DNA of 64,000 nt. Source: Calditrichota bacterium (lineage in GTDB: Bacteria; CLD3). The number at the start of each line of letters is the position of its first letter. Position 1 is the first letter of the stretch. This document shows, in pieces, positions 42,396 through 49,224 of the stretch. The notes beneath the pieces were generated by a model. The model was not told the origin of the DNA. It worked only from the letters and a program-made list of their open reading frames with translations, and made no database searches. The stretch covers positions 143,769-207,768 of the forward strand of contig QQUF01000040.1 in assembly GCA_008501735.1 (NCBI GenBank), written 5' to 3'. Made by a program: the position numbers and the translations under genes.

Positions 42396-42974
42396 TTAAT
42401 TTTCTAAGAGTGAAAAATCAACTCTTTCGTAAATTTTTTTAACTGCTACTTCACAATTTGGAGAATTTAATGAAAAAAAATCTTCTAAAGAAACAATCTC
42501 TTTCAAACTCCAAACTCCTTTTTCATCTTTATGAAAATGTTCAATTCTTACTTCCGATTGAGAAACCAAAACGTAATCGGTTAAGCTTTCCAAACTTCTG
42601 TAAAGCATAAATTTTGTTCCTCTGTCGTAATCCTTTGTTGACTCCGATAGAACGTCAAAAATGACTTTGGGATTTGAAATCGTGTCTTGTCGATTTTCAT
42701 AAAATTTAATTTCACCACAAACTACAAAAATATCAGGGTAAGTGAAAAACTCATTTTGCGCTTGAACTCTTAAGCCAATGAAAAAGACTTCACAGATTTC
42801 CTTTTCTAAACAATCCATTAATAAAGCCGTCAAACTTCCAGAAATTCGATTATGGTTTGCTGTTCCACTTTCCATTTCTTGAATTTTTCCTTTGTGAAAT
42901 TGATGTCTTGATTCAGAAAATTCTTCCAAATCAAAGTACTCTTGCAAAGTCGAATTTTTTTCTAAGTTTTTCAT
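42396..42974 (-). CDS. Uma2-family (DUF820) putative endonuclease
   Basis: This 192-residue protein shows the PD-(D/E)XK-type layout of the family: TLQEYFDLEEFSESRHQFHKG at the start, then YPDIFVVCG and VIFDVLSESTKDYDRGTK containing candidate catalytic Asp, Glu/Asp and Lys. ATG at 42974 is preferred over an upstream TTG at 43004 because GGA lies 6-8 nt upstream and the family N-terminus starts there. Family members are restriction-endonuclease-like but their substrates are mostly unknown. It lies between ispG and pruA. Confidence 0.8.
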   Translation of the reverse strand: MKNLEKNSTLQEYFDLEEFSESRHQFHKGKIQEMESGTANHNRISGSLTALLMDCLEKEICEVFFIGLRVQAQNEFFTYPDIFVVCGEIKFYENRQDTISNPKVIFDVLSESTKDYDRGTKFMLYRSLESLTDYVLVSQSEVRIEHFHKDEKGVWSLKEIVSLEDFFSLNSPNCEVAVKKIYERVDFSLLEN

Positions 42975-43006
42975 TTTTTCCAATTTTGCGGTGCTAACGC
43001 TCAAAA

Positions 43007-45246: not shown

Positions 45247-46017
45247 ATGCAAGAAACACAAGTTGAAAAATTAAATCAAGACATCAAATCTTTACAAGAA
45301 CAACTTGAAAAGGCAGAACAAAAAATTGCTACAACAGAAAAGAATTTTGAAAAACTTCGTGAAAAATTTGACTTAGTTTTTAAAAATACAATTGATATTT
45401 TTATGTTAGTTAGTGCGGTTACAGGAAAAATTTTTGATGTTAGTAGTTCTGTAAAGGAACATTTGGGGTATGAATCTGATGAATTAATAGGTAAAAAATT
45501 TGTTGAACTTTTTCCTCCTGAAGCAGAGGCACAAGGTGAGGTGATATTCGATAAAATAAGAATTTTCGATGGTGTTTTTGCTGAAGAAACTTTTTACAAA
45601 AATGATGGTTCTATTTGTTTTATGGATTTATCTGCTTTTATGGGAGAAATGGCTGGGACTAAGGTAATTTTTGCAACTTTAAGAGACGTTTCGGAAAGAA
45701 AGAAGAGAATTGAAGAAGTTGAAAAAGTTAAAAAAATGGAAGGTGCCTTAGCTATGTCAGGAGCTGTTAGTCACGAATTAAACCAACCTTTACAAATAAT
45801 CATAGGCTTTTCAGACTTAATAATTAAGGATAAAATAGACAAAGAAAAACTTGATGTTTATCTAAGTAAAATTAAAATTCAGTCGAAAAGAATGTCTAAA
45901 ATAATTGGCAAACTCACAAATATTACAGAATATAAAACTTTAAAATATATTGATTCATTTGAAATTATGGATATAAATGGTACAGAAGAAGAAACTGAGA
46001 ATCAAAATCTAACCTAA
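45247..46017 (+). CDS. PAS-HisKA protein lacking an ATPase domain
   Basis: This 256-residue protein has a coiled coil (1-45), a PAS sensor domain (about 45-155, with VSSSVKEHLGYESDELIGK), and a HisKA dimerisation domain with H176 in VSHELNQPLQIIIG. It ends about 60 residues later with no N, G1 or G2 box, so it cannot autophosphorylate alone. No transmembrane helix is seen; it is cytoplasmic. The next gene starts 19 nt downstream. It may be phosphorylated by another kinase, or serve as a signal-binding scaffold for the downstream fusion protein. Confidence 0.85.
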   Translation: MQETQVEKLNQDIKSLQEQLEKAEQKIATTEKNFEKLREKFDLVFKNTIDIFMLVSAVTGKIFDVSSSVKEHLGYESDELIGKKFVELFPPEAEAQGEVIFDKIRIFDGVFAEETFYKNDGSICFMDLSAFMGEMAGTKVIFATLRDVSERKKRIEEVEKVKKMEGALAMSGAVSHELNQPLQIIIGFSDLIIKDKIDKEKLDVYLSKIKIQSKRMSKIIGKLTNITEYKTLKYIDSFEIMDINGTEEETENQNLT

Positions 46018-46036: not shown

Positions 46037-48835
46037 ATGACTTCCAAAGAATCAAAATCATTTGTTCAATCCACAATAGAATACTTTTGGGACGTGAACG
46101 ACCTTGAGAAACGAACTCACCAATTACGTAAAAAAATCAAAAACATTTTTGAACACGAAAGTCTTAACTACGAAAGCCTAAGGGATTTAGCAGTTTTAAT
46201 GATTTTCTACGGAACTCCACTTGACATTAGTGAAATTGTTGGAATGAAAGTCAGCAATTTAGAAAAAGTTGAAATGGGAAGATTTAAGCTAAACCTTAAA
46301 TCAGATGATGGTAGAAAGGAAAGGACTTTTGTGTTATCTACAGAAGTTTCAAATGCAATCGAGAAAATGATTCAAGTTGCTGAAATTCCCGAATATGCTC
46401 ATCTTTTTGTAAACCAAAACGAAAATCCGCTTTCGCACCCCGAACTTTTCAGAATTGTCCAAAATTATTCGAATGAAAAACTGCTTCGTCAAGTTGGTGC
46501 AGATTCGCGTTTGACTGTTCGTGACCAATATATGGTTTTACCAACTCCTGCAAGGCTTCAAGCAAACCCGAATTACTCTGGCAAAGATGTTACAATTGCA
46601 TTTTTAGATTCAGGGTTTTATCCACACCCAGATTTAGTTCAGCCGACAAACCGAATTTTGAAATACATTGATTTGACAGGAAGAAACGTTCCTTTAGAAG
46701 AACCAAATCTTGATGCTTGGCACGGAACGATGACAACTGTTTGTTGTGCTGGAAACGGCTATTCTTCAAATGGACTTTACAGTGGAATTGCCAAAAATGC
46801 GAATCTCGTTTTACTCGCAGTCGGTGAAGATGGCGGAATTGACAGAGACAATATTTTAAAAGGAATTCGTTGGGTAATTTCAAATCGTGAAAAATATAAC
46901 ATTAAGGTTTTAAACATTTCTTTAGGAAGTGGACTTGAAATTTCCTTCAGAAGCAGTCCGATTGATGAAGCCGCAGAACTTGCGATTCAAGCTGGAATTG
47001 TTGTCGTTGCAGCTGCTGGAAATGACCCGTTTAGACCGAGTGTTCCTCCTGCAAATTCGCCAAATGTAATTACTGTTGGTGGTTTCAATGACAAAAATGT
47101 TCCTTTTGAAACAAATTACTCGGCTTACCATTCGCAGTTTGGAAAAACAATTGACGGCTTGACTAAACCGGAAATTACTGCTCCTGGAACTTTAATCGCT
47201 GCTCCGATTCTACCCAAAACTCCACTCTTTGACAAAGCAAGAGTTCTGTTTTATTTGAAGTCAATTCCAGATTCTGACTTAAAGCAAGAAATTAAAAAGC
47301 TGACTAAAGTTCTTGAACTTGAAAAAGAAGAGATTCCAAAAATACCTCAAGAATTAAGGAAATTAATAGACTCACTAATTCAAAGAAACAAACTAATTTC
47401 TCCAACTTTTCAGCACGTTGACGGAACTTCTTTTGGAGCTCCTGTTGTTTGTTCGGTTGTTGCTCAAATGGTTGAAGCGAACCCAAATTTGCCACCTGAT
47501 TTGATTCGTGAAGTTTTGATTAGCACAGCAGTTTCTATCCCTCACATTCCACGAGAACGTCAAGGTTACGGAACAATTAATGCGATGGAAGCAGTTGAAT
47601 CGGTTGAAAGAGATGAATTTTTGCACTTTGTTACCCAAAAAGATTTCCCAAAAGTAGAAGGAAACCAAGTTACTTTTCATTTTGACGGTGGTGAAGATTG
47701 GGAAAAAGTTTCAGTTGCAGGAGATTTTAATAAATGGGACTCTAAAGCTAATCCACTCACTAAAATTAATGGAAATTGGGAAGCAAAAGTTGAAGTTAAG
47801 TTTCCTGGTCAGTACCGTTATAAATTTGTTCTTAACAATCATTTTTGGATTGAAGACCAGAAAAATAATGATGCCGAACCCGATTCTTTTGGTGGAATGA
47901 ATTCAGTTTTTGAAATAAATGAATACTCTTACTCCGAAGAGTCTTTTAATGAAATTTTCAAAATTTTGCACGTTGATAAAAACGAAAATTTGCGTGAAAA
48001 TGCTCTCAGTGCTTTGGATTTTAATTTTCGTTGGCAATCCTCTGCGAGAAGTTCTCAAGTTTTCAATTACTTCCAAAAATGTATGGAAAATGTTTTAGCA
48101 AAACTTGATTCTGAACCACCCAAAAAAGGCTTAGAAATTATTCAACTTTATAACTGTGGAACAATTCTTAGAACTAAAGATTTTTGCATTGGAATTGACA
48201 TTGTTACAACTCGTCACGTTTGGGGAGTGAACTGGAAAATTTCTGAAAAAATTGCATCAAAATTGACTGACAAATTAGATTTACTTCTTGTTACTCAAAG
48301 ACTTCCTGACCATTTAGACATCGACATTATTCACCAAATGCTTCGAAGAGACAAAGATGTTGTTGTTCCACAAGAAGACAAAGATTTGATTTCAAGCGAA
48401 TGCCAAGGGATAATGCCTTCAGGAAATCTTAATTTCAAATTTGGGAAAACAAATCTAAAGATTAACGCCTCAAGAGCTTTGCACAGTTTTGACGGAGGTC
48501 GCAAAATCACGCAAAGAAATTATGAGTTGAAGTTTAACCGCAAAAAAATACTTTTTCTTGCCGACCACGATTACACAAAGTTCTTGGACTCCGGTGGAAA
48601 AGTTGATATTTTATTTGCTAAAATTGGTGAGCTAAATCTTGATTTTACACCGATTGAAGCAAGGGAAATTTTACTTAAAAAAGTTCAACCAAAACTTTTA
48701 ATTCCAACTCACATTGCCGAACTTGGTCATCCTGTTGAATCTGGTCAAGGAAGTTACGACAAAGTTGCTGACAGTCTTAGAGGGTGTGAAATTAATTATA
48801 AAATGTTAAGTTGGAGTGAAAGTTTATTCATTTAA
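46037..48835 (+). CDS. Recombinase-like/subtilase/CBM48/beta-lactamase-fold fusion protein
   Basis: This 932-residue protein joins four recognisable parts. Residues 40-150 resemble the tyrosine-recombinase catalytic core (LRDLAVLMIFYG, VGMKVSNLE, KERTFVLS), but the usual catalytic Arg after the Gly-Thr turn is Asp (GTPLDISEIVG). Residues 183-520 are a subtilisin-family protease with D191, H229, N329 and S465 (GTSFGAP); a helical insert lies at 393-455. Residues 540-630 are a CBM48/AMPK glycogen-binding-like domain (VSVAGDFNKWD). Residues 700-925 look like a metallo-beta-lactamase fold, with TQRLPDHLD and IPTHIAELGH and only part of the metal ligands. No signal peptide: it is cytoplasmic. GGAGGAATTC precedes the ATG. 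Confidence 0.8.
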   Translation: MTSKESKSFVQSTIEYFWDVNDLEKRTHQLRKKIKNIFEHESLNYESLRDLAVLMIFYGTPLDISEIVGMKVSNLEKVEMGRFKLNLKSDDGRKERTFVLSTEVSNAIEKMIQVAEIPEYAHLFVNQNENPLSHPELFRIVQNYSNEKLLRQVGADSRLTVRDQYMVLPTPARLQANPNYSGKDVTIAFLDSGFYPHPDLVQPTNRILKYIDLTGRNVPLEEPNLDAWHGTMTTVCCAGNGYSSNGLYSGIAKNANLVLLAVGEDGGIDRDNILKGIRWVISNREKYNIKVLNISLGSGLEISFRSSPIDEAAELAIQAGIVVVAAAGNDPFRPSVPPANSPNVITVGGFNDKNVPFETNYSAYHSQFGKTIDGLTKPEITAPGTLIAAPILPKTPLFDKARVLFYLKSIPDSDLKQEIKKLTKVLELEKEEIPKIPQELRKLIDSLIQRNKLISPTFQHVDGTSFGAPVVCSVVAQMVEANPNLPPDLIREVLISTAVSIPHIPRERQGYGTINAMEAVESVERDEFLHFVTQKDFPKVEGNQVTFHFDGGEDWEKVSVAGDFNKWDSKANPLTKINGNWEAKVEVKFPGQYRYKFVLNNHFWIEDQKNNDAEPDSFGGMNSVFEINEYSYSEESFNEIFKILHVDKNENLRENALSALDFNFRWQSSARSSQVFNYFQKCMENVLAKLDSEPPKKGLEIIQLYNCGTILRTKDFCIGIDIVTTRHVWGVNWKISEKIASKLTDKLDLLLVTQRLPDHLDIDIIHQMLRRDKDVVVPQEDKDLISSECQGIMPSGNLNFKFGKTNLKINASRALHSFDGGRKITQRNYELKFNRKKILFLADHDYTKFLDSGGKVDILFAKIGELNLDFTPIEAREILLKKVQPKLLIPTHIAELGHPVESGQGSYDKVADSLRGCEINYKMLSWSESLFI

Positions 48836-48849
48836 AAAAGGGCAAAATT

Positions 48850-49224
48850 ATGAAATTAGAACACTTGAAAACAATACTCATCATTTTTATGGTTGGGGTA
48901 ATTTGGAATATTTTCCAAATGGCTTATAATTTTGATACTTCAACAACAGTAATTTTTATTGATTTAGCAATAATTATCTTATCAATTATTGCTTGTTTTG
49001 CCTTTGCTAAAAATTATAACCAAACAGCAGGAATGTTTATCATTGCAAGTTCAAATATTCACTTGGTCAGTTTTTTAATGGATATTTTTACAGGAAGATT
49101 TGAACTTAATTTATTTCTGTTTCAAATTCCTTCAATCATAATTGGGTTATTAATTTTAAAATGGTTCGCTAAAACTCGTAATGAGCGAAAAGAAATGCAT
49201 ACAAAAGGTGAGTTCTGCGTTTAG
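48850..49224 (+). CDS. Small four-helix membrane protein
   Basis: This 124-residue protein has four hydrophobic segments (about 8-26, 33-50, 59-78, 88-108) and a short basic tail. No family is recognised. It starts 14 nt after the fusion gene, so the three genes from 45247 form a likely operon. It might anchor or be a substrate of the protease, but nothing in the sequence shows this. Confidence 0.6.
   Translation: MKLEHLKTILIIFMVGVIWNIFQMAYNFDTSTTVIFIDLAIIILSIIACFAFAKNYNQTAGMFIIASSNIHLVSFLMDIFTGRFELNLFLFQIPSIIIGLLILKWFAKTRNERKEMHTKGEFCV

Follow-up and report, generated by a model that had tools for sequence, protein, structure and literature searches.

A four-domain cytoplasmic subtilase from Calditrichota with a degenerate recombinase core, a CBM48 domain and a degenerate MBL-fold domain

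The intracellular subtilisin proteases (ISP) of Bacillus and Planococcus carry an N-terminal LIPY/F inhibitory propeptide (PMC6220982), and in AMPK-beta1 the residues critical for glycogen binding are W100, K126, W133 and N150 (PMC4032982). The gene described here, located at 46037..48835 of the 64,000-nucleotide stretch of Calditrichota DNA that was analysed (the window, on the + strand of which the protease gene, its parts and the two flanking genes lie), encodes a protein of 932 aa that joins a pseudo-recombinase, a subtilase, a CBM48 and a degenerate MBL domain in a single chain. The original prediction, made from the DNA sequence, knew of no described system with this arrangement, and a search of open-licence papers has likewise found no description of such an architecture.

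The open reading frame is uninterrupted, with a strong ribosome-binding site, GGAGG, ahead of the ATG, and scans for promoters and terminators gave a signal no better than chance. In the protein, Pfam recognizes Phage_integrase (PF00589) at residues 33-147 (40.8 bits, E 2.6e-10, cut-off 27.1), Peptidase_S8 (PF00082) at residues 182-512 (126.7 bits, E 1.4e-36, cut-off 21.8), both CBM_48 (PF02922, 31.7 bits, cut-off 22.4) and AMPK1_CBM (PF16561, 30.8 bits, cut-off 26.8) at residues 554-629, and Lactamase_B_3 at residues 744-892 with 23.3 bits, slightly below the cut-off of 24. An orthologue of 933 aa from another genus (L021), 59-60% identical to the window protein, has all four Pfam domains above their cut-offs and in the same order, with Lactamase_B_3 reaching 32.5 bits. 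Since two independent genomes share the four-part order, an assembly chimera is very unlikely, and a protein of 735 aa from another phylum, one of large genomes (L072), has a pseudo-recombinase followed by S8 and CBM48, without the MBL domain. Judged from these comparisons, the unusual layout is genuine, recurring in full in a second genus and in part in a second phylum; the predicted four-part fusion therefore stands, as does the absence of a signal peptide, as a simple hydropathy scan detects neither a signal peptide nor a transmembrane segment in the window protein or the relatives examined. Identity between the window protein and L021 is highest in the linker preceding the S8 domain (residues 148-176, 83%) and falls from S8 (69-76%) through CBM48 (59%) and MBL (54%) to the recombinase part (44%). 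The full-length AlphaFold model, built from three sequences, has a pLDDT of 42.8, which is below adequate confidence.

The N-terminal domain (residues 33-147, 46133..46477) is a truncated catalytic core of an Xer-type tyrosine recombinase, as indicated by the Pfam match, by alignment with Xer proteins and by a match to the XerA-like PDB entry 4a8e, and it corresponds to the first half of that core. In an alignment with Xer proteins from several genomes, Asp63 (codon 46223-46225) occupies the position of the catalytic Arg I, the segment reading GTPLDISE in place of the GLRxSE motif, just as had been predicted for this residue. In addition, the domain stops before the HxxR, second His/Trp and Tyr motifs, and the chain continues into the protease. 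The homology to the recombinase core fold is thus retained and the catalytic set (Arg I, Lys, His-x-x-Arg, His/Trp and Tyr) is not; with the catalytic Arg mutated and the core truncated, DNA recombination by residues 33-147 should be impossible. The N-terminal domain of L072 carries LYYGTPLDAEDICRL, in which GTPLD is kept. A profile built from the N-termini of the window protein and L021 detects L072 at E 4e-4, with no shuffle out of 3000 scoring as well as E 1; Pfam reports no recombinase in L072, so the homology of its N-terminus is supported, if modestly. The change from Arg to Asp is common to all three proteins, which come from two phyla, indicating that catalysis was lost long ago and that selection probably maintains the inactive form.

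The linker that follows (residues 148-176, 46478..46564) is the best conserved block between the window protein and L021, and its last part is the LPTxxRLxA segment with which the S8 domain begins. It may also hold a relic of the Xer HTLRH...GADLR stretch, seen as KLLRQ...GADLR in L021. Autoinhibition of the LIPY/F type through VLPTPARLQA was considered and rejected, since by eye this segment aligns with the N-terminal strand of mature subtilisins and not with the propeptide. The LIPY/F inhibitory motif is absent ahead of S8 in the window protein and its relatives, and the shortest relatives begin about 3-15 residues ahead of the LPT segment. The S8 subtilase domain (residues 177-525, 46565..47611; PF00082) has an intact catalytic apparatus: the triad D191, H229 and S465, correctly identified in the original prediction, is invariant across the aligned relatives, and the oxyanion asparagine is present as N329. 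An insertion before the catalytic serine (residues 391-450, 47207..47386), delimited from alignments, is found in relatives of this S8 family and is short in L022.

Of the 9 genomes in the small phylum to which the window belongs, 8 encode the S8-CBM48 core, seven with one copy and one with two, which fits a housekeeping or regulatory role, and members without other flanking domains also occur there. Outside this phylum such proteins are rare. The large searches scored four or five candidates per genome, and the genome counts they yielded are lower bounds: at least 1 of 295 genomes in the Segetibacter class, namely the query genome itself; at least two further genomes with strong matches in a domain-wide sample of 386, one of them with S8 only; and at least 19 of 377 genomes with family members in the phylum of large genomes. 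The latter are mostly stand-alone S8 proteins of 380-450 aa, and most members in that phylum are without CBM48 (L074-L081). Other N-termini occur among the relatives, such as a Cys-rich, possibly zinc-binding one in L022 and L073. The S8 tree (supports 73/75) does not firmly place the pair formed by the window protein and L021 outside the other family. Among the relatives, a stand-alone S8 gene (L085 5017-7313) overlaps the last part of what looks from its sequence like a PP2C-type phosphatase gene, so that the two may be transcribed together, and an S8-CBM48 gene (L046 6301-8575) comes after a small gene that weakly matches double zinc ribbons.

The third domain (residues 538-632, 47648..47932) is a CBM48 of the AMPK-beta glycogen-binding type. 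Besides the Pfam matches, a PDB search with the orthologous domain from L021 ranks the glycogen-binding domain of AMPK beta-1 first (1z0m, E 2.8e-11), and W100, K126, W133 and N150 of AMPK-beta1 correspond to W567, K596, W604 and N622 of the window protein, all four being conserved. Among the 11 S8-CBM48 proteins encountered, 9 retain the full set of four, and L046 and L073 have lost some of it. A glycogen/starch synthase family protein (PF08323) was found in all nine genomes of the phylum, which alone is no proof of glycogen storage, and no conserved glycogen-gene neighbours were seen beside the genes of the relatives. The CBM48 tree (supports of about 81/84) does not separate an arrival of CBM48 with S8 from an arrival with MBL.

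A helical linker (residues 633-697, 47933..48127), common to stand-alone CBM48-MBL proteins, leads to a UlaG/UPF0173-like MBL-fold domain (residues 698-932, 48128..48832), assigned from the above-cut-off Pfam match of L021, from alignment and from PDB matches; in agreement with the fold predicted for this region, a model of the domain of modest quality (pLDDT 54.9) has PDB matches at E below 0.001 that are all MBL-fold proteins. Both the window protein and L021 have QRLPDH (Q754-R-L756-P-D758-H759) in place of the HxHxDH motif, and H816, D843 and H892 are kept in the window protein. By standard MBL numbering, Q754 and L756 stand in for two of the three histidines of the Zn1 site; the Zn2 ligands are D758, H759 and H892, and D843 is the bridging residue. 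The earlier suggestion that part of the metal ligands is missing thus holds for the two Zn1-site histidines, and it needs correcting in that the ligands of one metal site are kept. The description of the flanking modules as sensor-like falls short for CBM48, the only one of them in which the ligand-binding residues are all retained. Separate CBM48-linker-MBL proteins of 400-441 aa, with HxHxDH intact, are present in four other genomes (L048-L051). Three of their genes (L048 9097-10332, L049 8541-9866 and L050 3830-5044) adjoin cbiG-like genes, in two genera of one phylum, or a hemA-like gene, in another genome; cbiG and hemA are tetrapyrrole-pathway genes, these neighbours being read from sequence, and L051 is without such a neighbour.

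The protease gene is closely flanked on both sides. A gene for a protein with a coiled coil, PAS and HisKA and no ATPase domain (45247..46017) ends 19 bp before it, and a gene for a multi-span membrane protein of 124 aa (48850..49224) starts 14 bp after it. The linkage with the former is not conserved: the nearest relative has its PAS-HisKA orthologue (L063 2085-2846, 43% identical and also lacking the ATPase domain) on a different contig, beside selD-like and moaA-like genes, and its protease gene elsewhere, after ABC-exporter genes. For the small membrane protein, no convincing homologue was found across the window's phylum. The three genes, originally proposed to form an operon, are consequently not supported as a unit, and the conservation of PAS-HisKA without an ATPase domain in two genera and different gene settings points to a stable half-kinase and not a truncated gene. 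The surroundings in the window are those of an ordinary chromosome, with ispG (GcpE), aldehyde dehydrogenase, NFACT, sulfotransferase, two-component and TonB receptor genes. A gene for a putative nuclease of the Uma2 family (42396-43004) has ispG on one side and the aldehyde dehydrogenase gene on the other.

Tentatively, we favour a model in which the protein is a cytoplasmic and probably active protease that is tethered to alpha-glucan and flanked by regulatory or binding pseudoenzyme modules, its activity, glucan binding, regulation and substrates all being deduced from sequence. The CBM48 domain would tether the serine protease to alpha-glucan (glycogen) granules, where it would degrade or process a limited set of proteins, and the two pseudoenzyme parts, a truncated recombinase core and an MBL domain that have lost their own catalysis, may bind proteins or act allosterically, holding the protease in check or choosing its substrates. 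The glucan-binding part is weakened by its reliance on four residues, as domains of the CBM48 type are able to bind partners other than glucan, and the partial loss of these residues in L046 and L073 and the mostly CBM48-less members in the second phylum count against tethering. The main rival, which appears doubtful, is a general intracellular housekeeping subtilase serving turnover in stationary phase or starvation, its flanking domains being neutral passengers acquired by fusion. Such a role would agree with the occurrence of stand-alone S8 proteins in another phylum, with the S8-CBM48 members devoid of further flanking domains and with the lower conservation of the recombinase and MBL parts relative to S8; however, neutral passengers would be expected to decay into stops and deletions, whereas a pseudo-recombinase with the same Arg-to-Asp change persists in another phylum and the loss of the two MBL histidines is common to both four-part proteins.

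The flanking domains could alternatively have kept functions of their own. The catalytic cores of recombinases make contact with DNA, and the fold remains conserved enough to score above the Pfam cut-off, so a core that still binds DNA might bring the protease to chromosomal targets, but this seems quite improbable given that the phosphate-contacting Arg is Asp in all three proteins and that this domain, besides being truncated, changes faster than any other part of the protein. The retained Zn2-site ligands, the bridging D843 and H816 would also be compatible with an MBL domain that still works as a one-metal hydrolase, which would make the protein a bifunctional enzyme; against this very improbable arrangement, both lost histidines are Zn1-site residues that the stand-alone relatives retain. 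Finally, the original prediction had raised a possible defensive role, which would make the protein a phage-defence or abortive-infection protease similar to IetAS, its flanking domains sensing infection and freeing a toxic cytoplasmic protease. The subtilase region does match the generic subtilase model of PADLOC and, weakly, IetS, but its score for the IetS equivalog is 25.2 bits against a cut-off of 900, and among the specific defence families of PADLOC and NCBIfam none fits. No AAA ATPase partner adjoins the protease gene, whose neighbours are the PAS-HisKA and membrane protein genes, and no defence genes or islands surround it; the relatives adjoin nuo, PP2C-like or outer-membrane genes, and most genomes of the window's phylum have a single copy. 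Viral and plasmid collections yielded no relatives of the family, the plasmid matches being ordinary S8 peptidases of less than 40% identity. Taken together, these observations speak against the defensive role and leave it highly improbable.

If the tethered-protease model is correct, a glycogen-binding protease would link bacterial carbon storage with regulated proteolysis. A wider interpretation, which we consider unlikely, is that the protein represents a new class of carbohydrate-responsive cytoplasmic proteases in which a dead tyrosine-recombinase core became a regulatory or substrate-recognition domain and glycogen status controls proteolysis. The recycling of pseudo-recombinase domains as protease modules is undescribed in the open-licence papers searched, and the retention of the Arg-to-Asp swap in three proteins from two phyla makes such domain reuse testable.

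In comparison with the known systems, the window protein shares the Asp-His-Ser triad and the oxyanion Asn with peptidase family S8, the nearest solved relatives being 9ues and 3afg, although it has no secretion signal or I9-type prodomain and possesses the pre-Ser insertion and the flanking domains. It resembles the ISPs in being a cytoplasmic subtilase without a signal peptide, and differs from them in its multidomain build and in lacking their propeptide. With IetS it has the S8 catalytic domain in common, but it scores far below the family cut-off, has no IetA ATPase and carries other extra domains. From the Xer/XerA recombinases, whose first half of the catalytic core it shares, it is set apart by the Asp in place of Arg I and the missing HxxR, second His/Trp and Tyr, and from the UlaG/UPF0173-type hydrolases, with which it shares the MBL fold, by the loss of two Zn1-site histidines and by the position of the domain behind a protease. 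All four critical glycogen-contact residues of the AMPK beta glycogen-binding domain are present, in this case fused to a protease and not to a kinase scaffold. Finally, the CBM48-linker-MBL order is the same as in the stand-alone proteins L048-L051, with the window version fused behind the protease, which illustrates how two existing proteins that share CBM48, S8-CBM48 and CBM48-MBL, can become one.
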